From a virus: a stretch of 49,208 nucleotides of DNA. A program made the translations under genes and the position numbers. The stretch spans positions 1-49,208 of the IMG/VR virus record IMGVR_UViG_3300008050_000068. One strand, written 5' to 3'. Below, piece after piece: positions 7,660-27,300 of the stretch. Numbering within the stretch: the stretch's first letter is position 1; each line of letters starts with the position of its first letter. The notes beneath the pieces are model-generated. The model searched no databases. It had not been told where the DNA came from and saw only the letters and a program-made list of their open reading frames with translations.

Positions 7660-8102
7660 TGGCTTTATACGGAAAACTCCCCTCTCCCCAGGTACAAAGA
7701 GATGTTATTGAAACTTCGGTTAAGAATATTACTGGATTATCTTGGCCTCCTGGTGGGGTTGCAGGACAGCCCTATTTTAATAAGGCAACCAATAACTTTT
7801 TAATAAAAGGCCAATTAACGCAACTACTTCTTACTGATCTAGGAGAGAGGGTAATGTTACCTGATTATGGAGTTGGATTAAAACAATATTTATTCGAACC
7901 TTTAACCGAGGATTTAGCATCTGATCTTGCAGATGAGGTAATTACTGCTATTAATACTTACGCTTCTAATATTAAAGTTATGAGTATAAGGTTTTTTCAA
8001 GATGAGAACTTAACTGGTTTTGGTATGCCAGGGATGAAAATACAGTTAACTGTAATGCCTAAAAATGGAGACCAACTATTAGATGTTGATATAGTAATAT
8101 GA
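7659..8102 (+). CDS. gp25: Baseplate wedge protein gp25-like (GPW/gp25 family)
   Basis: The 147-residue protein has the gp25 signature: LLTDLGERVMLPDYGVGLKQYLF followed by an EDLA..LADEVITAIN helix and a strand series ending in VDIVI. The pattern 'l.T..GeR.m.p.yG..l...lFep' is diagnostic of the gp25/W family, which links the wedge to the sheath-initiating layer and is shared with type VI secretion TssE. The ATG overlaps the previous stop (TAATG) and the stop overlaps the gp6 start (ATGA), so the gene is tightly coupled in the operon. Length is close to T4 gp25 (132 residues). Confidence 0.92.
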   Translation: MALYGKLPSPQVQRDVIETSVKNITGLSWPPGGVAGQPYFNKATNNFLIKGQLTQLLLTDLGERVMLPDYGVGLKQYLFEPLTEDLASDLADEVITAINTYASNIKVMSIRFFQDENLTGFGMPGMKIQLTVMPKNGDQLLDVDIVI

Positions 8103-9718
8103 TTGATAAAACTTCTAGCCAAACTGTACCGTTTACAGATGTAGGTTCTGATTTCATGAAATTGGTAACTTTTGTGGATAATGAAAAATCAACATTAGTA
8201 GATTTCACAGCTACCGATTTCGCATCCTTGCGTACTGCTCTTCTTAATTATATTAAACTTGTTTATCCTTTAGATTATAATAACTTCGTTGAGTCTGATT
8301 TGGGGCTAATGTTAGCTGAGTTAGTTGCGTACATGGGAACCGTTATGTCTATGAAGGCAGACATGCTTGCTCATGAAAACTTTTTACAAACAGCTAAGGA
8401 TAGAGATAGTGTAAGAAAATTATTTCAGTTAGTGGGGGTCTCGATGAAAGGGCCTACTTCGGCGCAAGCTACTGCTAACTTATCTATAGAGGGGGAAACA
8501 GGTACTCTTGATGAGGATCTCGTAATCCCTACTGCTAACCGTGTGATTACTGTTACTTCTCCTCAGGACCAACAACCTTTAAACTTTACTTTATATAAGG
8601 CTACTAATGGTATAGTACCTAACCTAACTAATACTAACGCAGACATTGTATTTGATCAAACTAATTGGGTAGGAGATAGTAGTAGTACCTGGGAAGCAGT
8701 TATGTTGGAGGGCGCGTTTGCTACCCAAACAGGAACCTTTTCTAATGTAGGAGTAGCCCAATCTATAATTTTAAATGAAGCACCTGTTATACAAAACAGT
8801 GTTCAAGTATTTGTGAGTGGGGTGAATAGCACTACTTCAGGAGCTTATAGGCAGGTTGAGAACATCTATCAAGCTTCTTCTACTAATGATAAAATATTTC
8901 AAGTAGTTTATTTAGATAACTACAAAGCTAAATTAGTTTTCGGAGATGGTAGTAATGGAAAGTCCCCAACACCCAATTCTTCCTATATAGTTACTTATAG
9001 AGTAGGGGGTGGGACTAGAGGAAATGTACCTAATGCATTTATTAATTCTATTCTTGAAGGAGCTACTTATAATGCTAGTCCTAGTAGCCTAAGGGTTACA
9101 CAATCCCAAATGTCTACAGGGGGGTCTGAAGCTGAGACCGTAGCTCATGCTAAGAAGTATGGACCCTTATCCTTTAAGCAACAGGATAGATTAGTCTCCT
9201 TAGAGGATTACACTTCTTTTGCTAGTAATTATGTGGGTCCTGCTGGGTCTGTTGCTAAGGCTGTAGCCTCTACTAGAAAAGCTTTTAGCTCCGCTAACAT
9301 AATTGATATATTTGTTCTGGAGAAAGCTACAGATACTCAATTACAAAAAGCATCTATTTCTTTTAAGAATGGTCTGCTTACAGCCATTGAACCTAAAAAA
9401 ATGGTAACAGACGATGTAGTTATTTCTGATGGTCTTATAAGAACTTTAGATTTAATAATAACGGCTCATGTGGATAGGTCTTTGCAAGGATTAGAGAAGA
9501 GTATAGTAGCAAATGTATCTCAAAGTGTTAGGGAGTATTTTATGTCTGATGCGTTAGATTTCGGGGATTCAATAATTTTCGCAGATTTAATGAAAACTGT
9601 TTTTGGTATCCCTGAAGTTAGATTTGCAGAGATTAATAATTTTGACGAGAATATTACTGTAGGGTTTAATGAAGTTATACAATTGAATAACTTAGTTGTA
9701 AATATTAATTATGTCTAA
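8099..9718 (+). CDS. gp6: Baseplate wedge protein gp6-like (baseplate J family)
   Basis: This 539-residue protein directly follows gp25, the standard gp25-gp6 pairing. The N-terminus has the gp6/J pattern: DFTATDFASLRTALLNYIK, then DLGLMLAELVAYMGTVMS and AHENFLQTAKDRDSVRKL. Further on, YRVGGGTRGNVP is the conserved glycine-rich turn of baseplate J proteins, and the segment after it (STGGSEAETVAHAKKYGP) matches the family's 'GG.d.Et...ar..ap'. Gp6 dimers form the inner ring that joins the wedges around the hub. It overlaps gp25 by 4 bp and the next gene by 8 bp. Confidence 0.92.
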   Translation: MIDKTSSQTVPFTDVGSDFMKLVTFVDNEKSTLVDFTATDFASLRTALLNYIKLVYPLDYNNFVESDLGLMLAELVAYMGTVMSMKADMLAHENFLQTAKDRDSVRKLFQLVGVSMKGPTSAQATANLSIEGETGTLDEDLVIPTANRVITVTSPQDQQPLNFTLYKATNGIVPNLTNTNADIVFDQTNWVGDSSSTWEAVMLEGAFATQTGTFSNVGVAQSIILNEAPVIQNSVQVFVSGVNSTTSGAYRQVENIYQASSTNDKIFQVVYLDNYKAKLVFGDGSNGKSPTPNSSYIVTYRVGGGTRGNVPNAFINSILEGATYNASPSSLRVTQSQMSTGGSEAETVAHAKKYGPLSFKQQDRLVSLEDYTSFASNYVGPAGSVAKAVASTRKAFSSANIIDIFVLEKATDTQLQKASISFKNGLLTAIEPKKMVTDDVVISDGLIRTLDLIITAHVDRSLQGLEKSIVANVSQSVREYFMSDALDFGDSIIFADLMKTVFGIPEVRFAEINNFDENITVGFNEVIQLNNLVVNINYV

Positions 9719-12700
9719 ACAAAAGTTATATAAAAGAACATACTCTGATAATATATCACAAGTAATCCCCAAGGTATACTTTGAAAAAGATTTCGCTCTG
9801 AGCGGTAATCAAAGGACTTTATATGATGAGCTAATCAATAGCCACATTAAGTTTTGTTTGTATACTAGGAACCTTCTTGATATATCTGCTACTAATAACT
9901 TTTCGGATATTGATAGTATCGCTGGCCTATCTCGCTGGTTTATTAAGCAGAATAATTTAACAGAGATAACTGCTAGAAAATTAGAGTTAAGTTTTTTTCA
10001 ACCATTAGGATACGACACTACAAATTATACCACCTCTGCATCCTTTAAATCTTTTTTAGAAGACACAGTATTACCCAAAATTAAATTAAACTCTTCTAAT
10101 TTAGCGGTGGATACTTCTAGTGCGTTCTCTACTACTGCTTCAGGAACCCATGAGTACTTAATAAACTTATTGGGGTGGGGATACTTCTTAAATACCTCTG
10201 GATCCACTACTAGCTCTTATTCTCCATCTTCCTATGTATCTGAGGCACTAACAGATTTATATTTTAATAACGGTACTTTTGATACAGTAAAGGGGGTAAA
10301 GGGGGCATCCCATTATATATGGAATGATTGGGCAGACCTGTCAGGCTTAGGAGCGGGAGCCTTTACATCTTTACTCCCCTCTCTTCTTCGCCCCGCTGGA
10401 GGCACATATACTAGCGGAACACAGACTAGGGATATGCTTGAGACTTTAGTAGATATAGTCTATAGTAATCAGTATGCAGATGAGGGAGATACTTATGTAG
10501 AAGATGCCTTTGTTGATTATATGGATAATGGGACGCTTCTAACTGGGGAAGAACAGGCTGGAGCCTTCTCTAAACTTATTAAAGCATTTTCTTATTCTTT
10601 TTATGACACAAATAATAGTGTTACTAAGTTAGCCTCAATATTTGATATAGAGAAATGTCCAGATAACCTATTACCTTATCTGGGTGATTTAATTGGATGG
10701 AGATTATATGGCTCTAGCCCAGATGCCTGGAGAAGACAGCTACGAAATGCAGTAAATTTATATAAACAAAAAGGAACTAAGGAAGGAATTTATAATGCGA
10801 TGACTACGGTATTGCCTAATACCCCTTTTCAGTCCTCTAGTATATCAGAGTTCTATGAATCCTATGTGCCTAACCTTATTTATTATCTATTAAAAACTGA
10901 AACTACTGTATTCGATAGTTTTACCTCCTGGACTCAATCCGAGGGGGATATGTATGCTGGTGGGAATTATAACCCTTCTTACATGGATATTAATATAAGA
11001 TATGTCATGGATAATATGTTGCTTAGGGCAGTGCAGCTATTCCCAGAATTATTTTATGTAAAGAATTTTAAGTTTGATACAAACAATCCTGACTTCATGT
11101 TTAGTTATAGAGGAAGATGGATTCCTATACCTCCTTGGGAAGAAGAGAAGTTCTATAAAGATTGTGATATGTCTGAAGAGTTGGCCGCTTTCTTTGAACA
11201 TGAGTTGGTATGCTTAGGTGTTTCTCAGCCTGTGGCAGCCTCTTTTAGAAGTTTCATAGAGGATAATACCATTAGAGGTAGTATAGATCCTAAGTTTTAT
11301 AACAATGGGTTTTTCTTTTTAACAAGTTCTATACATCAACCACCTAACAGAGATTCCATAATAAATAACTTTGAAGTTGATAAGTATGATTACTTCCCTT
11401 TATGGAATGGTAAATCTTCTCATTTTGATGTAGATGTATCCAGTGGTCCTTTTTCAGGAACATTCTTATTATCAGATGAGTTTTTAAAAGAAGATTTCTT
11501 TCAATCCTTAGCTGTAATTGATGAGTTTTCCCCTGCTAAATCTATACCTAGAATTAGGATAAACTTAGATGCCTCTGATTCAGCGGTGGTTTCTGAATAC
11601 CGATGCCCTTCGGTAAGGTATTGGATGTATGATTTACCTGTATCAGGAACTTTAGGGGGATCCTTTGTATCGGGTGTAGATATTAGAAGGGTGCCAGGAA
11701 CTATGGGGAGCAGTTACACACCCCCCGCCAACTCAGGAAGAGCTACAGTAAATCATACAGGTAAGCCAGTGTTCACTAGAAGCTTCATAGATAAACCTAA
11801 TGATAAAATTAATTTAATTGGGTCGGGCACAGAATCCCCTCCTGTTGGAGACCTATTTAGAAATAATTTACGACGAAGAAATTTTTCTAAAACTCTTGAA
11901 AAGGGTGGGCTTTATAACAGAACAGGGTTTAATATGCCCTCCTATTTTAATACTAGTGGAGAGGGTACTGATGTGGAGTATCAACCTTTAGGTCTATTAA
12001 ATCTTATATTTAATTACCACAAGGTTATTAATCCTTACGATTTATATGAGGTGTCTTCTTTTCCATATAACCTGGATGTGTGGTCAGAGTGTTGGGGACT
12101 AGACTCGGTGAGAACAATGAGTGGTATAGCTGCATCCTCTACCTTTCCTATTAGAGGACTTACCGATATAACTTCTGGGACTTGTAATGATTATGTAGCT
12201 AGGGAGAGGACCCCAGAGTTTTCCAGAGCCCTTCATTCATTTATAGATAGTAAGATTGATTATGAAGCAAATTATATAGCAAAGAAAAATAAATTTATGT
12301 TAGACACCTCTTCTTATTTGGACGGGTCTGCTGCTATTAAAAATATACTCTGGGATAAATACGATTTTACTTTAGATGATATTTATGATGTAGCTTTAGG
12401 CAAAAGAGTTATGAGCAGGGGATCTAAAGACGGTATACATAAATTATTTTTAGATTACTTACAGTACTTTGCTGGTCATGGAGTGGGAAACTCTACCATA
12501 GACACTATTGATAATGGTGGCTTAAATATCCTTTCCCATACTTTTGGACCTCTTTTATATAATGGAAAATTTACAGTTGATGGCTCTGGCACTGTAGATA
12601 TTGGAGTTAGTTCCCAATTACTTAATAAGAATTTGATTGATTTACAGTCTTTCTCTGTAAAGGATCTAGTATCCTTAGCCAATATCACCGCAACTGCCCC

Positions 12701-14612
12701 TAGTGCCCTTCCTGCCCAAGTATCAGAATATAGGAACCCTTATATTTTGTCAGGTGTAGAGTTTGTGGACTCTATTACAGGAACCTCCAAGTTTACTATA
12801 GTAGATTTAGATCCTAGCACTGCTGTACGAGGGGATGATAACTATTTAATAAACAACAATATTATTCTTACGGAGCCTGACGGGGGTTTATCTAGGTTGA
12901 GATTCAGCGTAAAGGATTATGGGGGGGCAACCAACCTGTTAATCCCAGAACATACATTTAGAGTAGATGTAAACGCTGCGATTGGGACTAAAGATTCACC
13001 CCTGCTGGGGGGAGGATCGTTTGGGGTGTGGTTGCATACTGCTCCAGAGCTTGATGAGCAGGGTAAGAGCGGATTTTGGAATTATATGCCTAATGGTAAA
13101 TGGAAATATATACCCTCTTCTTCTGTAGTATCAGGTACTACAGCTATTCAGTATGTCAGACAAAACTTAGTACATAATTTAGATTATTCAGAGACCTATG
13201 AAGTTTCTGGTGCTGCTTGTTTAGCTTCCACTACAGACAAAGATGTTTTATTAAATATGGAAGAAAGAGACTTTAGAAAAACTACTTTCCATTTTAATAC
13301 TCTAAATCAACCTATTAAAACTCATCTTTCTTATTACCAAGAGCATAATCAAGTTCATAGATCTGATCAGAATTATGTAGTGGAGCTTATAGATTTGGGT
13401 AGCACAAATACTAAGTTTGGTATTATAGATTATATTTCAATTGTAGATACGAGAGAAGAAGATAGAGCTAAACTAAAGCATTCTTTTAACTATAATAATT
13501 ATGCTATGGCAAAAGAAACTACTCTAGATGCTTTTATATTTATGGATTCAGAGGGTAATATTATTCCTTCTGGAACTACTTTATTAGCTGATTCTTCAGG
13601 GAATATAGAAACTGTAGGAGGTAGCAAAGTTACCTTTGTGGAAGCTCAAGCATATGGATTTGCAAAATCTAAAATTGTTCTGTACTCGCAAGTAGATTTA
13701 ATAGCTCCCTGGAGGTGGTCTGTGGACGCTAACGGAACACAAATATTCTTCCCAGACTCAGTTCACACAGGACCTTTTGGTGTTGATGCAAAAAAGATTT
13801 ATCCTACTGTATCTTATAGTCATACTACAGGAGATACTAGTCCTGGAAAAATTATTGGCAATTGGGAGTACCAGCTATGGTTCGCTGGTGTTGCGCCAGA
13901 AGAAGGCGATTGTAAGCCTATAGGAGCAACCGTAGCTGGTGATTTCCAGGTGGGAACCGTATGTAGACCTGTGGCATTGAATGGAACAGGGCCGTATAAA
14001 CAGGCTCTTGCTTGGGAGACTGAGGATGGGTACGATATATCAGAAATTTGTGAAGTGTGGCATGGTGCGACTGATTGTACCCCCCCTAGTGACTGTTGTG
14101 CTGGTACTACATATCCCTCTTGGTCCACTGATGACCCTGATATGGTAACAGAGATGCCTATTGACGGGAACTCTAATAGCGCATTTTCTTTAGATATGTC
14201 CGTTGGGTGTGATTCCAGTAATACATTTAAGTTAATTGCTCACTCTGCGGATAAAATGAAGACTTTAGAAGGTACTATTTCTTTAGAGGCTTCCACTACT
14301 GGGGGAGAAGGTTTTACTTTATTTCCTAGTCCTCTAACTATAAAGGGAAAAACAAAAGGTTCTAACATACAACAGTATCATGAGGTTTATATTCCCTATA
14401 CTAAAGAACAGGTAATGGAAGTACTAAGAGAGTTTAATAGATTACAGAAAGATCTAGCATCTAGACAATATTCTATTAGTGCCCCAAAGTTTGGACCTTT
14501 GGGTGGAAGTAGGTTAAATTATAAGGTAGCTCCTATGTGGGTACAGACGGGTGGTTATAGTGAGTATAAAGATAACAATAATCAATATACAGAATTGCGG
14601 GTGGAGAACTAA
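9711..14612 (+). CDS. Giant baseplate wedge protein, gp7 / tail-protein-I-like with long extension
   Basis: The 1633-residue protein overlaps gp6 by 8 bp and occupies the position of gp7 in T4. Around residues 305-360 it carries a tail-protein-I-type segment: CPDNLLPYLGDLIGWRLYG followed by WRRQLRNAVNLYKQKGTKEG, which in P2 gpI and T4 gp7 anchors the wedge to gp6. The N-terminus (residues 1-160) also contains a divergent copy of this kind of helix-rich region. The remaining 1200 residues are beta-rich and have no family I can name; about residues 1395-1500 hold seven cysteines in a short span (for example DCTPPSDCCAG). The C-terminus has a helix (KEQVMEVLREFNRLQKDLA). T4 gp7 is 1032 residues, so this version is much larger and probably carries surface or fibre-anchoring domains. 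Confidence 0.7.
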   Translation: MSKQKLYKRTYSDNISQVIPKVYFEKDFALSGNQRTLYDELINSHIKFCLYTRNLLDISATNNFSDIDSIAGLSRWFIKQNNLTEITARKLELSFFQPLGYDTTNYTTSASFKSFLEDTVLPKIKLNSSNLAVDTSSAFSTTASGTHEYLINLLGWGYFLNTSGSTTSSYSPSSYVSEALTDLYFNNGTFDTVKGVKGASHYIWNDWADLSGLGAGAFTSLLPSLLRPAGGTYTSGTQTRDMLETLVDIVYSNQYADEGDTYVEDAFVDYMDNGTLLTGEEQAGAFSKLIKAFSYSFYDTNNSVTKLASIFDIEKCPDNLLPYLGDLIGWRLYGSSPDAWRRQLRNAVNLYKQKGTKEGIYNAMTTVLPNTPFQSSSISEFYESYVPNLIYYLLKTETTVFDSFTSWTQSEGDMYAGGNYNPSYMDINIRYVMDNMLLRAVQLFPELFYVKNFKFDTNNPDFMFSYRGRWIPIPPWEEEKFYKDCDMSEELAAFFEHELVCLGVSQPVAASFRSFIEDNTIRGSIDPKFYNNGFFFLTSSIHQPPNRDSIINNFEVDKYDYFPLWNGKSSHFDVDVSSGPFSGTFLLSDEFLKEDFFQSLAVIDEFSPAKSIPRIRINLDASDSAVVSEYRCPSVRYWMYDLPVSGTLGGSFVSGVDIRRVPGTMGSSYTPPANSGRATVNHTGKPVFTRSFIDKPNDKINLIGSGTESPPVGDLFRNNLRRRNFSKTLEKGGLYNRTGFNMPSYFNTSGEGTDVEYQPLGLLNLIFNYHKVINPYDLYEVSSFPYNLDVWSECWGLDSVRTMSGIAASSTFPIRGLTDITSGTCNDYVARERTPEFSRALHSFIDSKIDYEANYIAKKNKFMLDTSSYLDGSAAIKNILWDKYDFTLDDIYDVALGKRVMSRGSKDGIHKLFLDYLQYFAGHGVGNSTIDTIDNGGLNILSHTFGPLLYNGKFTVDGSGTVDIGVSSQLLNKNLIDLQSFSVKDLVSLANITATAPSALPAQVSEYRNPYILSGVEFVDSITGTSKFTIVDLDPSTAVRGDDNYLINNNIILTEPDGGLSRLRFSVKDYGGATNLLIPEHTFRVDVNAAIGTKDSPLLGGGSFGVWLHTAPELDEQGKSGFWNYMPNGKWKYIPSSSVVSGTTAIQYVRQNLVHNLDYSETYEVSGAACLASTTDKDVLLNMEERDFRKTTFHFNTLNQPIKTHLSYYQEHNQVHRSDQNYVVELIDLGSTNTKFGIIDYISIVDTREEDRAKLKHSFNYNNYAMAKETTLDAFIFMDSEGNIIPSGTTLLADSSGNIETVGGSKVTFVEAQAYGFAKSKIVLYSQVDLIAPWRWSVDANGTQIFFPDSVHTGPFGVDAKKIYPTVSYSHTTGDTSPGKIIGNWEYQLWFAGVAPEEGDCKPIGATVAGDFQVGTVCRPVALNGTGPYKQALAWETEDGYDISEICEVWHGATDCTPPSDCCAGTTYPSWSTDDPDMVTEMPIDGNSNSAFSLDMSVGCDSSNTFKLIAHSADKMKTLEGTISLEASTTGGEGFTLFPSPLTIKGKTKGSNIQQYHEVYIPYTKEQVMEVLREFNRLQKDLASRQYSISAPKFGPLGGSRLNYKVAPMWVQTGGYSEYKDNNNQYTELRVEN

Positions 14613-16516
14613 TGAAAGGTTCAGTTGAAATATATGGAATAACTCATGAGGGGGAGAAAGAGTTACTTGTAGAGCAGGATAACCTTACCACCATAGGTTT
14701 TTCTGAGCAAATAACTGATTTGTTAACTACCCCATCCTCTATTAAATTTCCTACTACTGAAAATACGGCTATGCTTGATGCCTCTAACTATGAGATTCAA
14801 GGGTTTTCTATGTCTAAAAACAAAGACGCTTTTAGAAAAAATCAGCATAGCTATACTACTGTAAATTTATTACATAACTCTGATCTTAAGGACACTTCTG
14901 GGTGGGAATTATCTGAGGTAAGCTCATATTCTAATGTAATTTTAGGGGGTGTTAGTGGAGCTAGTGGAACTTTATTAACTGCTAATACTTCTGGTGCTTA
15001 TTTTAAGCAGGACATAAAGTATGATGATACCTTAGGTAACTTTTCTGTTTCTGGTATATTTAGTGGTACTTCTTTTGTTGGGTCCGTGGATGTTAAGTTT
15101 AATAAAAAGAACCCCCCAGTAGAGCTATCAGGAACTTCATCGTTTCCTTATGTAGGTCAGTCAGCGTTTGAGGTTAGCTCAGGAGGATACACTAGTAGGA
15201 CATTAATCCTGTGGGATATTAGTGGGAATGCAACATTACTAGATGATAAAACTAGTGCGAATTGGTTTGGTGGTATAAAAGATCTGGGGGGAGGTTGGAA
15301 TAGAATCTTTTTAAATGCTTCAGGACCAACAGATGGAACTATGACCTCTTTTATTGTATATCCCTCTGTGGGTATCTCCCCATCTGCATACGGATCTACC
15401 TCTTCGGTTGATGGTTCCGCAGGATCTATTTATATAAGTCGTCCACAATTAGAACTTGGGAGAGTGCCTACTAATTATGTTGAGACCTCTTCTTTCATTA
15501 ATCCTAGAGATGATACTTTAGCTTTCTCTTTACTTAATGCTACCCTGCCTTATGCCAGAAATATACTAGTACCAGCTTGGCAGGAGTTTAAGTATTATAT
15601 CTTAAGTGGTGCTGGGGGCGAGTCTTTAAGTGCTATTTATGAGGATCAAGAAGGTAATAAAGGACTATCAGCGTATATACCCTTTACTTCTTCTATAACC
15701 CCTTCTCCTAACCCCCTTGATAGAGTATTAACAGAAGGAGCTATAACTCCAGTTGAAGATGCTTTAGATATAAAGTATACTCAAGGGCAATTACCTAATG
15801 CTTTAGGGTATGGAGTTAGCGGATACTTACAGTTAAGCACCTATAACACTAAATGGTCTTATACTTCTGGGTATGACTCGGGTCTAGGGAGGCATGTAGG
15901 CTATTTGGGAGCTTATGGAGTTAGAGCGGGAAATGGACAAATGGTTTCCTTAAATTTTGTATCAGCATTAAATTTTGCTGGATATTCTACCCCCTTATCT
16001 AGTATGAAATTTAGTACTGGGGCGGCTGATCAGTGTTTAGATCGGTTTGGGTATTGGGAGTTATCGGGAGATGGTACGGCTAATCCAGTAATACCAGCAA
16101 ACGCATATTCTGAGTTTGTAAAAACTGTTGTCTCTGATTTTTCTTCTACTGGAGAAATAACTTATCATATAAAAATGGATAATGTGTCTGCTGATACAGG
16201 GTCACAAAGAGACCGTCCGGTTCTAAATGCTTTCGGTGGAGTAGATACTTTGGGGTTGTGGGGGCTTGATCTTAAGAAGATAAGAGAGGATAACATCACT
16301 GCAAATCCCCCATACAGTCGCCATTGTCACGGGCCTGCACCTCCTCTAGGTACTTGTGTTGTAGAGGATCCAGTAAGAAGGTATAAACTTTTTAATAAAC
16401 TAGTTTTCACGGATAATATAACAAAGATGGCTGGAGGAACTAGGACTAGAACTGCACCTGGAGTATTTGGTTTTTATAAAAGATTCGATATATATTGGAA
16501 GGTGAAGTTCCTATGA
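14612..16516 (+). CDS. Fibre/baseplate appendage protein with carbohydrate-binding-like domain (paralogue 1 of 3)
   Basis: This 634-residue protein starts at an ATG overlapping the previous stop (TAATG). Its N-terminus (MKGSVEIYGIT, then VEQDNLTTIGFSEQITDLL) is the same kind of entry motif as in the next two genes: a short strand pair, an E/D-x-N, then a helix. About residues 84-290 look like a carbohydrate-binding jelly-roll inserted after the entry domain: NLLHNSDLKDTSGWELSE at its start and SRPQLELGRVPTNYVETSS at its end, a closing motif common in phage adhesion modules. The rest is beta-rich without a recognised family. It ends in an ATGA overlap with the second paralogue. A role as a host-recognition or wedge-attached appendage is inferred. 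Confidence 0.6.
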   Translation: MKGSVEIYGITHEGEKELLVEQDNLTTIGFSEQITDLLTTPSSIKFPTTENTAMLDASNYEIQGFSMSKNKDAFRKNQHSYTTVNLLHNSDLKDTSGWELSEVSSYSNVILGGVSGASGTLLTANTSGAYFKQDIKYDDTLGNFSVSGIFSGTSFVGSVDVKFNKKNPPVELSGTSSFPYVGQSAFEVSSGGYTSRTLILWDISGNATLLDDKTSANWFGGIKDLGGGWNRIFLNASGPTDGTMTSFIVYPSVGISPSAYGSTSSVDGSAGSIYISRPQLELGRVPTNYVETSSFINPRDDTLAFSLLNATLPYARNILVPAWQEFKYYILSGAGGESLSAIYEDQEGNKGLSAYIPFTSSITPSPNPLDRVLTEGAITPVEDALDIKYTQGQLPNALGYGVSGYLQLSTYNTKWSYTSGYDSGLGRHVGYLGAYGVRAGNGQMVSLNFVSALNFAGYSTPLSSMKFSTGAADQCLDRFGYWELSGDGTANPVIPANAYSEFVKTVVSDFSSTGEITYHIKMDNVSADTGSQRDRPVLNAFGGVDTLGLWGLDLKKIREDNITANPPYSRHCHGPAPPLGTCVVEDPVRRYKLFNKLVFTDNITKMAGGTRTRTAPGVFGFYKRFDIYWKVKFL

Positions 16517-18213
16517 GAGGTAAGTTTAAAATAAGGCAGCTTAATAAAAGAACTGGTGAGTCTACGGTTATACTAGAGGAGTCTAACCAAGTCTCCCAAG
16601 GAATGAAACATGCTTTAGTAAATATTTTATGTGGTAGAGGATCTAGAGAAGTAGAAGATTATCAGTTTAAGTATTTTCAATTAGGGGATCAAAACTACAA
16701 TCTCAGTACCTTTGATGTCTCAGCAGATGTACCCGCATCTTCTTTACTAAGTAATTTTTGGACTATTAAGAGTCCTTTAGATCCCTCCGCTTACGGCACA
16801 GATAGTGCTGTTACTGTAGTTAAAAGAGATATTTATGGTCTTGGGTCTATAATCCCAAGTACAAGAGGTAAAGTTTTTGATAATTTTGTAGATCCTCCTG
16901 ATACCACTAAATTGTCTTGTAGTTATACAAATAATTTTGAATCTAATCCTAGACCTATTCCCCCTGGGCCACGAAAAACTACCTGGATTCCTGGGTGTGC
17001 TAATACTTGGGAGAAAAAAGCAGAAAACTATTTTCTTCATCCCCTTGAGTTAAGTGCTGATTATACTGTTTCAGGTCCAACTTTTACTTCCCCAACATGG
17101 AGTATAGAATATAATTCCAGTAGTAATGTAGCAGGTATTACATCTTGTCTTAGAGGAAGTACAGAGTATATTTATAATGATGGGAGAAAACCCAGTTACT
17201 GGAATCAGGGTAAGAAAAATCAAACATTATCCGTCTACTATATGCCAGAATACTACGCTTCTAGTTTATCAACTTCTGGTAGCACCCCCACAGTGGGAAA
17301 ATTAATGTTATATAATAGGACCGCAGCAGTACTAGGGGGCGATAGCGTTGCGGGGTACAACCAAGTACGGTTTGAGTACAGATACGACCTAAAGTACTCC
17401 TCCTCCAGCACCCCTGGGGCTGCGTGGTATCCACCAGAGATCACACAGGCTATAGATGGGTACTCTCAATGCACGGGTGACTGTAGGGACAAGTGGGAGG
17501 GCTCCTACGGGTCTGGTGTGACTGGGGGGGATGTGTCTGCAAATGTGTATTGTAGGGATGGAGCTATATACACTCCAGCAGACGCAGAGGCCGACTATGC
17601 CACTAGAAATGGTCCAGGGAAAGACTGCTTTGACACTCCCAACTCTGGATTCGGGCCTAGTGGAAATTTTTATAGAATATCTGTGTCCTGGAATAATGTT
17701 CCTGATGAAGTTATAGATGTGGATACTGGGCTTGTATCTGGGATAGCATTACAGGCATTTAATTATCCCCTTTTCTCAAGAGCGTTAAGTATCAACCCTA
17801 CGACAGGAGCTATTACTTCTACAAACGATCATGAGGTTACTCCGAGAGAACAACTTTATATAGCTAATCTTCAGTTTGAATATACCCCTTCAGCTACCCC
17901 ATACCAGTATATACATGCAGAGAAGTCGTATTATATAACCTCTTCTCAAGACTTCTTGGTAATACCTAAGGGGTATACTACTTCGTTAAATGATAATACA
18001 GCTAATGTAAGATTATTAATAGATGAAGAATTGGCAAATAATCAGACTATAAAAGAAGTAGGGTTATTCTTAAAGAATCCTAATGGTACTGCTGGGATTG
18101 ATAACCCCTTTCTTACTGCTTATAAAGTTATTAGTCCACCCCTTGCTAAAAATAATGAATTTTCCTATATAATTGATTGGGAGTTGAGCCTGATAGATTC
18201 GACTACTACTTAA
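16513..18213 (+). CDS. Fibre/baseplate appendage protein (paralogue 2 of 3)
   Basis: I place the start at the ATG at 16513, which overlaps the previous stop (ATGA) and follows GGAAGGTGAAG; an upstream in-frame TTG at 16495 is less likely. The product has 566 residues. The N-terminus (KIRQLNKRTGESTVILEESN, helix, then YQFKYFQLGDQN) and the C-terminus (LANNQTIKEVGLFLKNP, then FSYIIDWELSL) match the compact third paralogue at 18234 end to end, so this protein looks like the same fold with a central insertion of about 300 residues. That insertion includes a GC-rich segment at about 17330-17640 with clustered cysteines. The C-terminal 'EvGLFl.np....l.aY' pattern recurs in phage fibre-end domains. 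Function as a variable appendage is inferred. Confidence 0.6.
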   Translation: MRGKFKIRQLNKRTGESTVILEESNQVSQGMKHALVNILCGRGSREVEDYQFKYFQLGDQNYNLSTFDVSADVPASSLLSNFWTIKSPLDPSAYGTDSAVTVVKRDIYGLGSIIPSTRGKVFDNFVDPPDTTKLSCSYTNNFESNPRPIPPGPRKTTWIPGCANTWEKKAENYFLHPLELSADYTVSGPTFTSPTWSIEYNSSSNVAGITSCLRGSTEYIYNDGRKPSYWNQGKKNQTLSVYYMPEYYASSLSTSGSTPTVGKLMLYNRTAAVLGGDSVAGYNQVRFEYRYDLKYSSSSTPGAAWYPPEITQAIDGYSQCTGDCRDKWEGSYGSGVTGGDVSANVYCRDGAIYTPADAEADYATRNGPGKDCFDTPNSGFGPSGNFYRISVSWNNVPDEVIDVDTGLVSGIALQAFNYPLFSRALSINPTTGAITSTNDHEVTPREQLYIANLQFEYTPSATPYQYIHAEKSYYITSSQDFLVIPKGYTTSLNDNTANVRLLIDEELANNQTIKEVGLFLKNPNGTAGIDNPFLTAYKVISPPLAKNNEFSYIIDWELSLIDSTTT

Positions 18214-18233
18214 GACTATCCTATATAAATATA

Positions 18234-18815
18234 ATGAGTAATAATACTGCACTAACACCTACGGGGCATTTACAAATTTCTAAACTCTATGAGAATGGAG
18301 AGGAAGAGATAGTATTTGATGATCACAATATAATCACTTCTGGTATGGGGGTGGGGTTTTCTCACCTTTTCGCTGCTTCGGGGGGGACTCAGATAACTGA
18401 TTACCAAATACTTAATTTCTTGATAGGGTCTGCTGGAAACTTTAATGATTACGGAGCGTCTACATATCAGCTTCAAGCCCCTATAACTGCCGAAGCGAGG
18501 TGGGGGGCAGACACTACATTATTTTTAGAAACTTTATATACTATAGAAAACGGGTCTCCATTGGGGGGTCCTCATCCTTTCGCTAGAATACGCTTTAGCA
18601 ATATTCATAAGGTTACAGATACTTCAGTAAGATATACTTTAGTTTTAGATAGAGCTACTTTAAATAATACAGCCCTTAGTGAGATAGGGTTATTTATGAG
18701 GAATCCTAGGGGACAAACTCCCGTAATTCCAATCTTAGTAGCCTACAGACCCTTTACCGAAATAACAAAGACTAGTGATTTTAGTCTCATCTTCCGCTGG
18801 ACACTACAGTTCTAA
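18234..18815 (+). CDS. Compact baseplate appendage protein (paralogue 3 of 3)
   Basis: I choose the ATG at 18234, giving 193 residues, over the TTG at 18177, because the ATG product aligns at its N-terminus with the upstream paralogues (GHLQISKLYENGEEEIVFDD, then a helix and YQILNFLIGSAGN). Its C-terminus (LNNTALSEIGLFMRNPRG, then FSLIFRWTLQF) matches paralogue 2. It has the shared N- and C-terminal modules with almost nothing between them and may represent the ancestral or core fold. It sits 20 nt after the previous stop and its own stop overlaps the next start (TAATG). The role is unknown beyond virion structure. Confidence 0.6.
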   Translation: MSNNTALTPTGHLQISKLYENGEEEIVFDDHNIITSGMGVGFSHLFAASGGTQITDYQILNFLIGSAGNFNDYGASTYQLQAPITAEARWGADTTLFLETLYTIENGSPLGGPHPFARIRFSNIHKVTDTSVRYTLVLDRATLNNTALSEIGLFMRNPRGQTPVIPILVAYRPFTEITKTSDFSLIFRWTLQF

Positions 18816-21800
18816 TGTTTAATAAAAATGATTTATATAGCGCATCTGGGGGAGTAACAATATTCAATTATTGGAACCCCTTCGTAACAAAGCACGACAC
18901 TTCTTCTTTCTATAATTGGGAACAAGATAACCTTCCTTTATATGATCTAGAGGAACGAACCTATTATCTATGGGAGAAGCTGGGATACCCACTGTCTAGT
19001 ATTCCTGGAATGGCTTTGGTAGTATCTGCTACCATTGATAATAGTATAGCTGCAAGTGCCAATATGTTTACTACAGTGTCTGCTGCCATAGAAGCTCTTC
19101 CAGAGATAATTAGAATGCCTACTCTTATCGAAGTAGCTGTCGCAGGGAATATGGGCGAACTAAACCTTAATAATATTAAGTGTGAAGGTGATGGTATTCT
19201 TGAGATCGTTAACAGGGCAGGGGCTCCTTTAGCATCTAATGCCGATACAACTACTATAACTGCTAATAACTATGGTAATGGAGACCAAGCACCCTGGTAT
19301 TTACCATGGGGACTGTCTGCTCTTCAAGTGTTTGGGACCTTATCAAGCATGAGTGCTATATCTCTTTCTGCTAATACCTCAAGTGTATTCTATAACGATA
19401 AGACTACAGATGTACGAAACATTATTTTGCCAGGGAGACGAGGGGTGAGCATAGGAGATACCTACGCTCCCCCAGCCTATGCCTATCCAGGAATAGCTGA
19501 TAATACTGTTGATTGGAGAACTGGAAGTACTGGCGTAATGTATGCCAATACTATAACCCTTAACACAGGGGCTCCTGCTCAATCTCTAGTGCAGGATGAT
19601 ACTATAGCGACTTTAGATGTGTCTTGTATTAGTGAATTAGATGATGCTCATATGTATGGACCACAGTACGCATTCGGCGATCCAGTGGGGTATCAACTAG
19701 CTAATGGTCTTGTAGCGGGAAACTGGTTCACTTCGGTAAAGGCTCAAAATTGTGATGGGCCTATTTATGTAAGAGGGTTTATAGTAGATGGTGCAAATAC
19801 ATCTACTACTGGGTTTAAAGTAGATAATTGTGTCAACTTTACCTTAGAGAACTGTGGTTCTATGAGATGTACTACCGCAGGGTTTGATATAAATAACTCT
19901 ACTGTTAACCTACGAAGACAAGCTTTTGCTACTAGAAACTATAACGCTACTGATAGAGGTACTATTAAAACTTATGGATTCAAGATTACTAATAGTGAAG
20001 TCGATTTTGTAACGGATACTTATACTAGTGGAGTATTTGCTAAGTTAGCTAGTCACTTCCATGATTACGGAATTTACTTAGATAATTCTGTGCTTCGTGG
20101 TGGAGATGCTATAACTGAAGGAGCTATGCTAGGTAGCAAAACTTTTTCTACAGAGATTGGAGTAAACCAAACCAACTTGTATTTAGTTAATTCAAAATAT
20201 GAAATGAACGGTATCACTAGCGTATATCAAAGTTACAATAATATAGAAGCTTATGACTCTGCTGTACGAGTAGAGCAGTTACATAGTAAGTATGCTCAGA
20301 ATGCTGGTCTTTTAATGTTCAATAGCTCCTTTAAGTATAATAAGAATCTAAACATTAATGCTGTGGGACAGTACACTTATACTGGGAATATTAAGGAAAG
20401 CGGAAATTACCCTATCTTATTTCTAAATAATGGTCAGCATGTAGTTCTTAAAGCAGGGTCCTCTTACGGACCTACCTATCCTAATACGACATTAAGTGCT
20501 ACAGAATCTGTTACAGATATTACTACTCTTTATAATATGGAAATGTATGCTGAGCATATAGGAGCTATTTCGGAAAATAAAAATGCTACGCAGAGATTAT
20601 CTAAACCTGCTATTGTGGTAGATAATTCTACTGCCCAGTTTACTTGTAGTAAGATTTTATGTTCCTCCTCTTTGTCTCAAAGAGCTTCTGTATATCATTC
20701 TCCTGCTGCCCTACATAGTACTAATAATGCATCTGTAAATATGGTAGGGTTAGCTAATAAAGCTACTCTTCAGAATACTATTTGTTACGCTACAGGAAAT
20801 GCATCTCGCGCTTCTTTAGGTTACTTAGCAGATAAAGGATCTTCTATACACTTTACAGGGCCTAATGTTATTTACAATTTTGGGATAGATGCAGCCGCAT
20901 TAGATGGGTCTAGGATTAGTGCAGGAATTCCATTAACAGAAAATGGTACACCAGACTGTACTCTTAGTGGATGGGGCAGAGGTCTTTATCCAGCGACCCC
21001 AGTTATTGAAGCTCATAGTGGGAGAGCCTGTTTTGTGGCAGATAATAACTCAGAATTATCATTTGAAGATGTAGGAAATTCTCAGAGGTATTGGAGTAGG
21101 ATTAATAATGATATAAATTTATCTGCTAATACAGATTATGATTTATCAGGATCTTATAAAAATACTTTATGTGCTAGTGGTGGCTTGCAATTCTATCCTA
21201 ATTCCTTCGAAGTTACAGGCAATGACTGGAAAAATATTATTACTAATAATATGACTGGATTTAGGGATGCTTACGAACTTTCTACATTTGCTCAAGGGGG
21301 ATATACCCAAACCTTAAAGAATGATACTGCAACAAGTGCCTTCAGAATATTATATAATGATACCTATAGTACATTAGGTCCACAAATGGCAAAAATTAGT
21401 CAGGGTGGAATGTGTGTTAGGGCTGCTGGTGGTAGTAATGTTAAAGTTAGGAATGTTCACTTCCCAACAGGGTGGTATAACACTGATGGAAGTTATTATG
21501 ATGCGTCCTCTTCTCCTGCTGGGTGTGATAATTTAATGATTTGGAACATAGCTGACACCTCCAGATTGCATGCTGCTTATATTGCAGTTAGTGGGGCTTA
21601 TCCATCTGATGCTGGGTATACAGGTCCTAGATCTTTCTACCATAGTGGAACCATAGGTATAGGATTTGCTAAGGACTCTAGTTCTGCACAGTATAATATG
21701 CCTTCAGGAACTCTACATACTGGAAAATTATCAGTACTAGATCATTTTGGGAGTGGTACTTTTGTGTCGAGCAATCTTACTTATGAAGATCGCTCTCCTT

Positions 21801-22399
21801 CTACATTTAAGGCAAGTGCTGTGTGGGCGAACACATCATCTACTTATAGATTTATGGAATCCATACAGGAATCTAGGTCAGGGATAACTACATCTTCTAC
21901 TTATGGGGAATTAACAGCAGAAAACCAAGGAGCATTTAGATTGTATTTCTCTGTTTCTCCTGCTGCTAAGGTACTCTCTTATGTTAGTGGGTGGGACGAT
22001 CCAAGAGTTAATCCAGCTAGTAACCTCCCCTATCAACATTTATCTCAGGGATACCTATTGTCTGGGGATTGTTCTGGCCCATCAGACTTTAGCGGTCTCT
22101 ACCCACAACTATTAAATAAGAGATTATTTGAATTAAGTGGCATATTACAAACTAGTGGTTATTATTATCCTTCAGAATTAATGCCTAAAGAAAGGGCTGA
22201 TGTATGGTTAGATGAATCAGCAGCAAACTTATTCTCTAACGCTAAACATTGTAATACAGACTACAGTAATAGAATAAAACTAGTTAATATTTATAGGGCT
22301 AGGACAGATGACTTTGGGGAGGCTCAATCTCCAAATACCGCTGGGCACGGCTTAGGATTTAGGTCTGCTAACATTTTTGATATAGATAGAGAAATATAA
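18815..22399 (+). CDS. Tail fibre / tailspike with predicted parallel beta-helix
   Basis: The 1194-residue protein starts at an ATG overlapping the previous stop. Residues about 15-65 carry a docking-type motif (FYNWEQDNLPLYDLEERT, then LWEKLGYP) shared with the next gene. The middle has repeating short strands with Asn and Gly turns, such as YVRGFIVDGAN, FKVDNCVNFTLENCG, FDINNSTVNL and YGIYLDNSVLRG, the typical look of a right-handed beta-helix in tailspikes and fibre shafts. No catalytic residues could be assigned, so an enzymatic depolymerase role is not claimed. The C-terminal part includes DCSGPSDFSGLYPQLLN. The probable role is receptor contact. Confidence 0.65.
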   Translation: MFNKNDLYSASGGVTIFNYWNPFVTKHDTSSFYNWEQDNLPLYDLEERTYYLWEKLGYPLSSIPGMALVVSATIDNSIAASANMFTTVSAAIEALPEIIRMPTLIEVAVAGNMGELNLNNIKCEGDGILEIVNRAGAPLASNADTTTITANNYGNGDQAPWYLPWGLSALQVFGTLSSMSAISLSANTSSVFYNDKTTDVRNIILPGRRGVSIGDTYAPPAYAYPGIADNTVDWRTGSTGVMYANTITLNTGAPAQSLVQDDTIATLDVSCISELDDAHMYGPQYAFGDPVGYQLANGLVAGNWFTSVKAQNCDGPIYVRGFIVDGANTSTTGFKVDNCVNFTLENCGSMRCTTAGFDINNSTVNLRRQAFATRNYNATDRGTIKTYGFKITNSEVDFVTDTYTSGVFAKLASHFHDYGIYLDNSVLRGGDAITEGAMLGSKTFSTEIGVNQTNLYLVNSKYEMNGITSVYQSYNNIEAYDSAVRVEQLHSKYAQNAGLLMFNSSFKYNKNLNINAVGQYTYTGNIKESGNYPILFLNNGQHVVLKAGSSYGPTYPNTTLSATESVTDITTLYNMEMYAEHIGAISENKNATQRLSKPAIVVDNSTAQFTCSKILCSSSLSQRASVYHSPAALHSTNNASVNMVGLANKATLQNTICYATGNASRASLGYLADKGSSIHFTGPNVIYNFGIDAAALDGSRISAGIPLTENGTPDCTLSGWGRGLYPATPVIEAHSGRACFVADNNSELSFEDVGNSQRYWSRINNDINLSANTDYDLSGSYKNTLCASGGLQFYPNSFEVTGNDWKNIITNNMTGFRDAYELSTFAQGGYTQTLKNDTATSAFRILYNDTYSTLGPQMAKISQGGMCVRAAGGSNVKVRNVHFPTGWYNTDGSYYDASSSPAGCDNLMIWNIADTSRLHAAYIAVSGAYPSDAGYTGPRSFYHSGTIGIGFAKDSSSAQYNMPSGTLHTGKLSVLDHFGSGTFVSSNLTYEDRSPSTFKASAVWANTSSTYRFMESIQESRSGITTSSTYGELTAENQGAFRLYFSVSPAAKVLSYVSGWDDPRVNPASNLPYQHLSQGYLLSGDCSGPSDFSGLYPQLLNKRLFELSGILQTSGYYYPSELMPKERADVWLDESAANLFSNAKHCNTDYSNRIKLVNIYRARTDDFGEAQSPNTAGHGLGFRSANIFDIDREI

Positions 22400-24345
22400 T
22401 GGCCGATTTTTTTGCAGATGGACAAGACTCGTCTCAAGTAACATACAAACCTAGTAATCATTTATTTACTGAACCTATTAGATACTTTAAAGCTAATGAT
22501 CCTTATTATTGGGAGGTGGATAATATACCACTTAAACAGGTCCAACAGAATATTTTGTGGCTTAGGGATCAAGTTGGTTGGCAGGTTGGGTCTGATGAGG
22601 GTGCTGTAAAAAGATCGGATTTTGCAGAGCTTAGACCTCGCGCTGGTGGGGATACTCATCTAGTTACGGTTGATCCTGGTCGTTTTATGGGGAGGGTTAA
22701 TGACGCTTATGGAACTGGAATAGGTAAACTTGTAACTCAAGCGAGAGCAGACTATAGTATAATCCCACCAGATTTTGATAGTGACAAAGAGGTTACTTTT
22801 GATACTATGCTTTTCAGGAGGATCATAGGGGAAGCTGTTACTGGTATCGTAGGTAATAATGGATTATACGATTTTTTACAAACTCATACATCCACCCCTA
22901 TAACAGCTAATGTTAATACAGTAGGGTGGCAAAATACTTATGGATCGTTTCAACAGAACGATAATAGTGAGAATGGTATTATAGATATACCTAAGATTAA
23001 ATTAGCATTATGGAAAGCCGATACTACTGCTAAAAACTATGGTCCTGATGCTGAAGATCTTCAGCAATTAGCTGTTGATTTTACAAGAGCATGGGGTGCC
23101 CCATTTAGAACTGCTTTAGTTAATGTAGAAAATCAGCTTTCCATTGAGGTTCCTCCTTTTAATGATGCAGACTATGTAAATAATGATCCAACTTTTGTTC
23201 CTGCCACTAGAGTTGATTTATTATTTGTATATACTAAACCAATAGATGCCTCGTCTACGGCAATAGCTAGAAGTAATGGAACATCTGCTGTTGAATTAAC
23301 CTCCCCTCAGTTGGGGATAGTTAAGGGTGCTGGAGTAATATCCTTAAACGCTGTTGGGCCTGATTGGACTGATGTTACTGTGGACCCAGCGTTTTTGGGT
23401 GGAGCCGCTTTTGATACGGAGAAAAATAATCCTAATAATCGCTTCCAAGCTCTTGGTGCATTAGATGCTAATAATAATAATCAAATATCATCTCCTACTG
23501 TAGATCAAAGACAGACTTCCATAGGAACGAGTGGAGTTTATGGAAACTTCCCAAGTCCAGATGATCTAATGAACTTAGCTCCTTATTTAGCAGATGAATT
23601 ACAAAGTGGAAGTAAGCACCCAGCGTTAATAGGACAATCTATTCTTCCTCTAGCTTATATTTTTGTTAGAAAAGGGCAACTCTCAATTACTAATAATGAT
23701 ATTTTAGATATTAGACCTTTCTTTAGAACTGCTGAACTCACTTACAATGAAAGGGCTGGTCTTGCAGCAGCTAATCCCCCAGCATCCTTAGCTAACCCAG
23801 TTGTTACTAATAGTGATTTAGCTAATAGGTTAGCTCACATAGGGGATTTGATACCCAAACTTTCTGTAAGTGCCATTAATGTAGAAAGAACAGAATTTTT
23901 TCCAGATGATTATACTGTGTTTTGGGGTAAAACACCAAACCAGATGAATGCTAACTGGGAGATACCAGGAATACCAGACGAGGATAAAGATAAGATAGTG
24001 TCTGTACAATTTAGATTATTTCCTATACATAGCAAAGAAGATACAATAACTACTTCACTAGTCTGGTTTAGTACTATGACTAAAAATAAATCGGAAGTGG
24101 GCCGTTTTAATTTAGGGGTTACGGATGCTGATTCCAGGGACGCAGACGGGTTTCCTGGACCTATATTTAATTTCCCTGTAGATACTGTCACGGACCCTTA
24201 CACTGGAGTTAAGAAGGTAACAATAACTGTTACAGCCCAGGGGGATAATCAGGATGTGAATAAACAACCTCTGATTAAGTGGTATTGTAGAGTGTTAGGG
24301 TATACCGCTAGAGATTCCATTATCCCCGTCACAGTTACCTACTAA
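22399..24345 (+). CDS. Baseplate/fibre structural protein with WExDNxPL docking motif
   Basis: The 648-residue protein starts at an ATG overlapping the previous stop (TAATG). Residues 24-65 contain IRYFKANDPYYWEVDNIPLK followed by a helix and LRDQVGW, clearly related to the N-terminus of the preceding fibre. The rest is mixed, with DILDIRPFFRTAELTYNERA late in the protein; 'DIRPf.r.aELTynEr' is a pattern I associate with structural proteins of marine T4-type phages, though I cannot name a characterised member. The C-terminal about 130 residues are strand-rich (VSVQFRLFPIHS and others). It probably attaches to the baseplate through the shared N-terminal motif and carries or connects an appendage. 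Confidence 0.55.
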   Translation: MADFFADGQDSSQVTYKPSNHLFTEPIRYFKANDPYYWEVDNIPLKQVQQNILWLRDQVGWQVGSDEGAVKRSDFAELRPRAGGDTHLVTVDPGRFMGRVNDAYGTGIGKLVTQARADYSIIPPDFDSDKEVTFDTMLFRRIIGEAVTGIVGNNGLYDFLQTHTSTPITANVNTVGWQNTYGSFQQNDNSENGIIDIPKIKLALWKADTTAKNYGPDAEDLQQLAVDFTRAWGAPFRTALVNVENQLSIEVPPFNDADYVNNDPTFVPATRVDLLFVYTKPIDASSTAIARSNGTSAVELTSPQLGIVKGAGVISLNAVGPDWTDVTVDPAFLGGAAFDTEKNNPNNRFQALGALDANNNNQISSPTVDQRQTSIGTSGVYGNFPSPDDLMNLAPYLADELQSGSKHPALIGQSILPLAYIFVRKGQLSITNNDILDIRPFFRTAELTYNERAGLAAANPPASLANPVVTNSDLANRLAHIGDLIPKLSVSAINVERTEFFPDDYTVFWGKTPNQMNANWEIPGIPDEDKDKIVSVQFRLFPIHSKEDTITTSLVWFSTMTKNKSEVGRFNLGVTDADSRDADGFPGPIFNFPVDTVTDPYTGVKKVTITVTAQGDNQDVNKQPLIKWYCRVLGYTARDSIIPVTVTY

Positions 24346-24348
24346 ATA

Positions 24349-27300
24349 ATGTCAGTATGTAAGGGTAAAACAGTATATTGTGATTCTGGGGATGAGATTT
24401 GTAAATCCTATGATATGGGCGACGAGCATGAGTGTTTTAGCACCTTATTCGATACAGACTGTATTAATAATCCTGATGGGGGTGGTATATGTGAAGACGA
24501 TACTGGAATAACATATTATAATTCAGACTCATCTTCTCAGTGTGCTAATGATTGTTTCCAGACAGTAGGGGATGATCTATGGCTAAATTGCACTCTAAAG
24601 TTCCCTGGAACCTATCCTCCTGGAGGTGACGGTCCTGGAGGTGGTGGGGAAGGTGGACCCCCTCCTGATGACGATGATGGAATTCCTTGTGATAAGACTC
24701 ATAAATACTGGGTATGTGTTGAGAAGCGGGGGGAAAGCAAAGATAATAAATACTGGACAAATTATACTTGCGAACAATTATACACTTTTAATGTAACTGG
24801 GGAGAACTCTACGGATTGTGAACCCCCAGATGAATTGCAGACCCCATGGGGACAGACCGCATATTTCGATAAGGACGAATGTGAAAAATTGTGTGATGCG
24901 GGGACTGCACATGGAGGGGGAGGGGGAGCAGGAGGAGGTTTAGACGACGATTTTAATTCTGGCTGCAAGGGCATTGCATGGAAATGTAATAGCAATACGG
25001 GATACTGTACTTCTAGTGAAATGGGTAAGGGCCACCCATGTTTTCAGACTTTATTTAAACTAAATTGTTCTCCTAGACCCTTTCCTGTAGGTGGGGGTTG
25101 TACACTAGATGGTACTTATAAGTGGTACAATAATAAAACTGTCTGTGATACTTGGTGCGATAAGGACGGTGGAGGTGGGGATTGTTCAGGAGATGCTCTG
25201 AGGTGTAACACGGACGATAAGTATGACCCTTCTTGTCAATCTTATAGTATGAATATAGGTGAGCCTTGTTTCCAACCTTTGTTTAAGCCAAATAATTGTA
25301 AACCTAAAGAAGGTGCGGGTGTGTGTATACAGGATGGAATAAAGTATTTTAATAAACATAGTACCTCTACTAATTGTGGTGATCCTGGTGCTTGTGAACC
25401 TGCGTGTAAAGGTAAAACAGTATATTGTGATCCCGCTGATACCGATGATCCGACTTGTAAACCTTATGATATGGTCCCCGAGGATTTTTGTTTTATTAGA
25501 TTATTTAATGAAGATTGTACCAATAAACCCGCTGGGGGAAATGAATGTACCGATCCGGATGGTAAAAAATATTACAATTCAGATGGATCTTCTTTGTGTG
25601 CTGGGTATTGTGCCCCTCTGGCTACTTGTACTAGATGGACTTGTGATAATGAGGGTTTTCCCCAACAATGTTACGCTGATGGCACGGAGGGAGGATTGAT
25701 TGATTATTCGGGGAGTGGATTCTGTATAACTTCTTCTCTTGTAAATTGTGCCCCAAATGGGACTTACGAATACGATACTTGTTGTGCGTGTGGTGGTACT
25801 TATACTAGTGACCCAGACCTAGGGCAATACGCTACTGCTATGGAAGCACTATTAGATGGTAAGTGTGTTACTTGTGGGGCCTGTGGGTATGGATGCCCCC
25901 ATTCAACCCCTGGTGCCACAGATTGTACGAAGAATTGTTGGGATCAACAGCAAAATAAGCTTTGCCATCCCGACAATAAGGATTTAGTATATGATGCAAC
26001 TATAAAAGATGCTAAATGTGTATTTGATAAGAATAATTGGCCTACTTGTTGGGAGAATTATTTGGGTTGTACGGATCCCAATACTGGTTGCGGGTCAGAT
26101 GAGATATTCACCGATTATGTAATCTGCGCTGAAACAGTTTGCCCCGCTCTGACTTGGCTTCCACACTCAAATCATGTTAATTGTGGTGTTGCAGCCCCTG
26201 CTTTTAATATATGCGCCCAAGGTACATACGGGCAAGGTGACTATTCTAATGACCCTGGAGTATTTAGCTGTACTGATTCGGCCCTTGTGACCAAAACTAC
26301 TTGTTTCGAGGCTTATGATATAGCAAACCCTAAAGGATCTATAAAGGATTTGTATTATGACACTGATTTTCCTTTTGAGGGACCACCTGAAATGGGGATC
26401 TATCAATGTGATAATAGAATAACTGATCCTTTAAACCAACTTGGTTGTATTTGGGTAAAAGCTAATAAGTGTCCAAATGATGAGAATACTCCATGTGGTC
26501 AAGGGTCTGGGAAAGGGTTTGGCGATAACTGCTGGGAGTGTTCTCCGTCTACCGATGCTTGCTGTTCTCAAACTGCGAGGGGGAAAAGAAGTAATGGAGG
26601 GACTTTAATATGCCCTAAAGGAAGTTGGCCCACCGAGCAGTCTTGTAAAGAAACTTGTATGCATGATTGCTATAAGTGTGATACTTTTAATACTGCTAAG
26701 ACAATTAGTATACCTTGCTCTACTCCTTGTTCAGAGAAGGGTAGGTATGATACTTTAGCGGAAGCTCTTGAGAACTGTTCTATAGAGCAACCAGAATACC
26801 CCTTCCCTTTCTTTACTGATGTGGCATTAAATAAAGTTTATCGTCCTGATATTATTGATACTGTATTCCAAAGAAACTATAGCAATCAAAAGTATGGAGT
26901 AAAATCTACTTTTACCCCAATAGTTAATAGTACTTTCATCAACAAGACTCTATTCAGAGATAATATTCATATGGGTATTAGAGCTACTCATGACATTAAT
27001 AAGAGGTACTTAGAAGAGTTTAGTGATTTTCCCTATAGTAATATGTCTAATTCTAATATAGAGAGAAGTTTACGGAAGGACTTACCTCCTCTATTAGATA
27101 AGATTAAGTTAGCTACAGGGGAATCTATTAAACCTCATATCTTAAATACTATACGAGGACTTATCATATCTGATAGAGTAGATGTTATAGATGGAGATGA
27201 GTTGGTGGAGTCTTTACAAAGTATTTTAGATCAGCAAGATAATTACCCAGACACTAGAGGAACAGTAGTTACTGTGAGGGGGACACATGCCTCCGAAGCA

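Follow-up and report, generated by a model that had tools for sequence, protein, structure and literature searches.

Tandem copies of a putative baseplate adaptor domain with exchangeable, probably glycan-directed modules in an uncultured marine T4-like phage

The contig IMGVR_UViG_3300008050_000068 (49,208 bases, analysed at its full length and referred to here as the window) derives from an uncultured marine T4-like myovirus whose tail and head genes follow the T4-like order. It carries three consecutive genes, A, B and C, which on the evidence of pairwise and profile comparisons are tandem paralogs of one core domain of around 195 residues. The three proteins are probably a duplicated adaptor, similar to baseplate wedge 3 or the arm segment, that displays exchangeable modules for binding or modifying glycans. 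We propose more tentatively, and with somewhat less than even confidence, that the duplicated adaptor serves this uncultured marine T4-like clade as a general plug-in site that places active sulfatases, hydrolases and glycan-binding jellyrolls at the rim of the baseplate, and would be the first virion-borne sulfatase system, desulfating the polysaccharide coat of the host at adsorption. Receptor-binding proteins cannot be identified in most environmental phages; a core that is conserved and has a recognisable plug-in site would help to locate the variable modules with which an abundant group of marine phages contacts its hosts, and sulfatase plug-ins would bring sulfated marine polysaccharides into phage adsorption.

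Genes A, B and C lie directly 3′ of the gp25, gp6 and Tail_P2_I genes, with short overlaps or short gaps between them; an alternative TTG start at 16495 is possible for B.

611 (start position only): gp53-like gene
7659: gp25 (Pfam E = 1.9e-12)
8099..9718, plus strand: gp6-like baseplate wedge subunit (PHROG 219, baseplate wedge subunit, E = 1.3e-37)
9711..14612, plus strand: gp7/P2-gpI-like large baseplate protein of 1633 aa, directly 5′ of gene A (Pfam Tail_P2_I, E = 7.4e-5, above the gathering score)
14612..16516, plus strand: gene A, 634 aa, with core-N half, jellyroll insert, A-specific middle and probable core-C half (A-family profile match to the core; AlphaFold2 pLDDT 79.5, pTM 0.85)
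16513..18213, plus strand: gene B, 566 aa, in which an insert splits the core (ATG at 16513; C-core HMM matches at the two ends only)
18234..18815, plus strand: gene C, 193 aa, the bare core domain (ATG at 18234; AlphaFold2 pLDDT 88.4, pTM 0.85; full-length match to PHROG 5417)

The first-pass annotation had described three tandem paralogous genes with a common N-terminal entry motif, the third consisting of the shared ends alone as a compact core form, and our comparisons bear this out. B and C are clearly related pairwise: blastp aligns B residues 3-89 with C 11-110 (E = 2e-7) and B 492-560 with C 127-193 (E = 7e-10), and alignments of their ends reach scores of 108 and 85, where shuffled sequences gave at most 43 and 46. 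Scanned with an HMM built from C homologs, C contains the whole core, whereas in B the two halves lie at opposite ends of the protein, around 400 residues apart. A and C as single sequences are related at about the level of chance (score 47 against a shuffle maximum of 42; blastp E = 0.016), and A is joined to the others through family profiles, with hhalign matching the A family to the core family over the N-terminal half at 95% probability (p = 5.5e-8) and over the C-terminal half weakly, though collinearly (p = 6.8e-4). The AlphaFold2 model of C is a confident mixed-beta domain; the model of A starts with the same E-E-H-h-E succession, and its five end strands match the order in C. Family profiles and predicted strand order together indicate that the shared ends make up a single predicted domain, one half each, and that C is that domain alone. 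The 'GLF...NP' and 'W.L' end had been reported for B and C only. It is present in both, and corresponding strands close A as well (LGLW...W.V.F); given the weak profile match and these predicted strands, the C-terminal core half is probably common to all three proteins. The parts of A and B are as follows.

14612..14851, plus strand: core-N half of A, aa 1-80, E-E-helix-h-E (matches the core family in hhalign at p = 5.5e-8; its predicted strands follow the order seen in C)
14861..15493, plus strand: insert of A, aa 84-294, a jellyroll resembling the GTA head-spike-fibre domain (NF048003, E = 1.2e-7)
16112..16513, plus strand: probable core-C half of A, aa 501-634, with the end LGLW...W.V.F (hhalign p = 6.8e-4, collinear; AlphaFold2 strands 501-506, 515-522, 546-552, 591-598 and 624-632)
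16513..16722, plus strand: core-N half of B, about aa 1-70 (core HMM 8-82; blastp E = 2e-7 to C)
16792..17931, plus strand: insert of B, around 400 aa, with a conserved GFGPSGNFYR motif, found with 14 C sequences of the window's clade
17932..18192, plus strand: core-C half of B, with GLF..NP and W.L (core HMM 109-193, E = 5e-14)

Residues 8-193 of C align with positions 9-156 of PHROG 5417 (156 positions, annotated as unknown function; E = 2.7e-6). The same family is matched by proteins of Vibrio phages D69/GR11A and by gp28 of halovirus HGTV-1, which are located in baseplate regions: in HGTV-1 the gene for gp28 has the equivalent place, immediately behind baseplate J and a further baseplate protein, and the GR11A homolog, which aligns across the whole core (hhalign p = 2e-11), follows a wedge-like gene. 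These positions favour a baseplate-rim adaptor. C matches the family over its full length, whereas the known members of PHROG 5417 are single bare cores and insert-bearing paralogs were not seen among them. With gene C of the window as query, tblastn against deposited phages gave no match, and the family consensus of C was needed to reach the Vibrio phages.

The wedge 3/arm segment proteins of Herelleviridae (A511 gp105, the phi812 arm segment, Deep-Blue Gp177 and Vp4 Gp119) are likewise the third element after two wedge proteins, as A is in directly following gp6 (8099) and the Tail_P2_I protein (9711), and they act as the proximal anchor for receptor-binding proteins, the role that we propose here. 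They differ from the present proteins in sharing no sequence similarity with them, in that there are three tandem copies here, one of them always bare, and in the sulfatase and hydrolase modules found in relatives of the window. The Vp4 Gp119 core carries CBMs and has homologs without them (PMC11406892), so that insertion of a CBM into such a protein is already known; the triplication and the sulfatase plug-ins appear to be new. The A511 protein (6hhk) and the phi812 arm segment (9fko) are also the top plausible, though weak, matches of the C model among PDB folds (E = 0.08, probability 0.69, TM 0.37), and an Eldridge baseplate protein matches among predicted viral proteins (E = 0.008). Searching PDB chains with the C profile at E ≤ 1 gave no sequence match; since sequence homology was looked for and not found, we do not place C in the A511 gp105 family.

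An unlikely but not negligible alternative would make the core an N-terminal tail-fibre anchor like that of P2 gpH or tail-collar proteins, and all three proteins short tail fibres or spikes. P2 has the gene order J-I-H, which the succession of J-like, I-like and core genes resembles, and the stronger fold matches of the C model among predicted viral proteins include tail fibre and tail collar proteins, some annotated as tail fiber and tail collar fiber protein, as well as proteins of HGTV-1 and archaeal filamentous viruses. Against this, a Pfam search of A, B and C at E ≤ 1 returned no family, the tail-collar family included, C is a bare core without a fibre, and the predicted A is globular. 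As an observation in its own right, the C model matches proteins of archaeal filamentous viruses (Betalipothrixvirus, AFV1 and SIFV) confidently, at E of about 1e-9 to 1e-5, which suggests from predicted structures that the adaptor fold spans virus realms, these viruses belonging to a different realm.

Under the preferred reading, as a wedge-3-like adaptor, the three proteins would link the gp6/gp7-like wedge to the appendages that touch the host. The core is expected to dock on the wedge, so that extra domains would be displayed at the baseplate rim with docking undisturbed. The large modules of A and B lie in the linker that joins the core halves; some relatives have them C-terminally or in a different loop.

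One of the inserts had been credited with a carbohydrate-binding look, and the insert of A does resemble the GTA head-spike-fibre domain. It aligns with positions 7-175 of the 182 of NCBIfam NF048003 (GTA_spike_fiber), and its 32.5 bits lie under the curated cut-off of 36, so we note the likeness and do not file the insert as a family member. NF048003 matches in 17 of 47 A proteins, and the insert is missing from 44 compact A proteins (290-427 aa). Searching solved structures with a profile of A inserts brought up, at marginal E, two phage baseplate/triplex proteins and the RcGTA head spike fibre, and Foldseek with the A model found matches mainly to its jellyroll; chance was assumed for NCBIfam matches of a single member at E > 0.002 (Shiga toxin and others). 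In RcGTA the fibre (Rcc01080) binds capsular polysaccharide (PMC10218006) and is a capsid spike, whereas in A the domain is an internal module of a baseplate protein. By analogy, the jellyroll of the window's A may bind a surface polysaccharide. The insert of B, which would be a second host-contact module, is conserved throughout the window's own clade in alignment and gave no match in a sequence search of the PDB. The inserts had been described as large and different, and a profile comparison agrees (p = 0.17), leaving the idea that the B insert is the jellyroll of A unsupported; against a broad jellyroll set, the B insert shows only a 35-column end signature (p = 5e-4).

To follow these modules, around 90 relatives were gathered from viral contigs with C and gp6 as queries and with the C family profile; the C profile found zero relatives among genome contigs, and there is thus no host link. 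C is bare in all 88 distinct C proteins (191-231 aa). The A proteins fall into a compact form of 290-427 aa and a large form of 532-1146 aa, and modules enter compact A at three sites, HMM positions of about 90-106 (the window and most others), 174-187 (L023) and 311-315 (L050), the last falling inside its C-terminal half. The B slot is missing in 42 of 88; where present it is bare (206-224 aa), split by the insert of about 400 aa (the window's clade) or extended C-terminally, and insert and extension occur together with two C sequences (L006 and L007; also L008 and L009).

The B extensions sort into five families, one of which holds 15 extensions and includes the jellyroll (p = 1e-8). Seven of 35 sampled B proteins carry sulfatase extensions, all with intact C-x-P-T-R, GKWH and DNG motifs; they belong to the type I sulfatases (PF00884) with Pfam scores of up to 103 bits (L144; cut-off 25), a membership found in relatives and not in the window, and their nearest solved structure is kappa-carrageenan sulfatase. 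The two sulfatase domains used as queries against 50,697 deposited phage records gave weak, partial matches at most, and no description of a phage sulfatase was found among the papers of the one library searched. Five further extensions have an alpha/beta-hydrolase-like G-x-S-x-G elbow, followed in one of them by a head-spike-fibre-like domain. Their assignment as hydrolases is tentative, being based on the nucleophile elbow and, in L129, on a weak match to a PHA depolymerase; phmmer with the L130 hydrolase region found no match in the PDB. In L078 (17492-20260), the B extension is alpha/beta-hydrolase-like with GFGVGG in place of the elbow, and may be an inactive binder. Separately, a 1753-aa protein encoded upstream of gp6 in L100 (390-5651) has a sulfatase domain (E = 1.4e-29) around 35% identical to those of the B slot.

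Across relatives, the core is therefore found bare or with sugar-binding domains, sulfatases or hydrolases, which suggests a site into which tools acting on the sugar coat of the host can be plugged. A, B and C would be part of the virion and their modules would bind receptors; the sulfatases, and the hydrolases in the same slot, would be active during adsorption, stripping sulfate or ester groups from the host surface glycan before irreversible binding. Modular receptor-binding proteins of Klebsiella phages have an N-terminal anchor followed by a C-terminal specificity module, with depolymerases joined to the anchor (PMC8262889). Both systems combine a conserved structural module with an exchangeable glycan-active one, whereas here modules also lie inside the anchor domain and relatives carry sulfatases.

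Faster divergence of the inserts than of the ends had been proposed as a check on modularity, and is observed for both genes. In the window's clade, mean identity of the B insert is 43%, compared with 58% and 65% for the core halves, and it is less conserved than these in 63/66 and 66/66 pairs; for A, conservation of the jellyroll falls below that of core-N in 54/55 pairs and below that of core-C in 49/55, all of these being descriptive counts, as the pairs share ancestry. Modules also appear to have moved. The clearest case, judged from sequence identity, is the 233-aa jellyroll of gene A in L080, which shares 70% identity with one that L105 carries in its gp7-like gene. This jellyroll recurs in A, in the gp7-like gene and in B extensions. 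The gp7-like genes are otherwise collinear and show a clean presence or absence of this block of about 240 aa; it is absent from L089, in which the flanks are 83% and 74% identical to those of L081.

L081, 11578-17526: gp7-like gene
L089, 11569-16800: gp7-like gene
L105, 11581-16810: gp7-like gene

Mapped on the C tree, the B architectures require about 10 changes (9-10) against a shuffled mean of 43, indicating slow, clade-wise turnover of the B slot and ruling out free, rapid exchange of B modules between close relatives. The B genes of L037 and L078 cluster with the C proteins of their own clade, and the B duplication therefore arose at least twice. The proposal of a scaffold with exchangeable receptor-binding inserts is supported, with corrections: the core does occur bare, split or fused to different modules, but modules enter at several sites, architectures at B are mostly clade-specific, so that exchange there is slow, and several of the plug-ins are enzymes.

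This clade-specific distribution of B architectures, with few changes on the C tree, and the B insert, which has no recognisable function and no PDB sequence match, would also suit a reading in which A and B are ordinary lineage-specific structural proteins with decorative or stabilising inserts, host contact not being determined by these genes. We regard this as improbable in view of the intact catalytic motifs in seven B sulfatases, the nucleophile elbows of the hydrolase-like group, the recurrence of one jellyroll in three gene contexts and the faster divergence of inserts than cores. It is very improbable, and already largely refuted, that the ends resemble each other through convergence of edge motifs in unrelated folds, since the near-chance likeness of A and C as single sequences is bridged by family profiles and matching predicted secondary structure, and B and C match clearly even pairwise.

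The two genes that follow the adaptor genes, at 18815-22399 and 22399-24345, have an N-terminal motif in common (...Y.WE.DN.PL...; alignment score 66, highest shuffled score 42) and are possibly a second paralog pair with a docking motif of its own. The next gene (24349-28638), in the baseplate region, encodes a 1429-aa protein whose N-terminal part is very cysteine-rich, with diverged repeats (CKGKTVYC...), and the PAAR-motif protein at 28635-28967 (E = 3.9e-6) is a likely spike tip.
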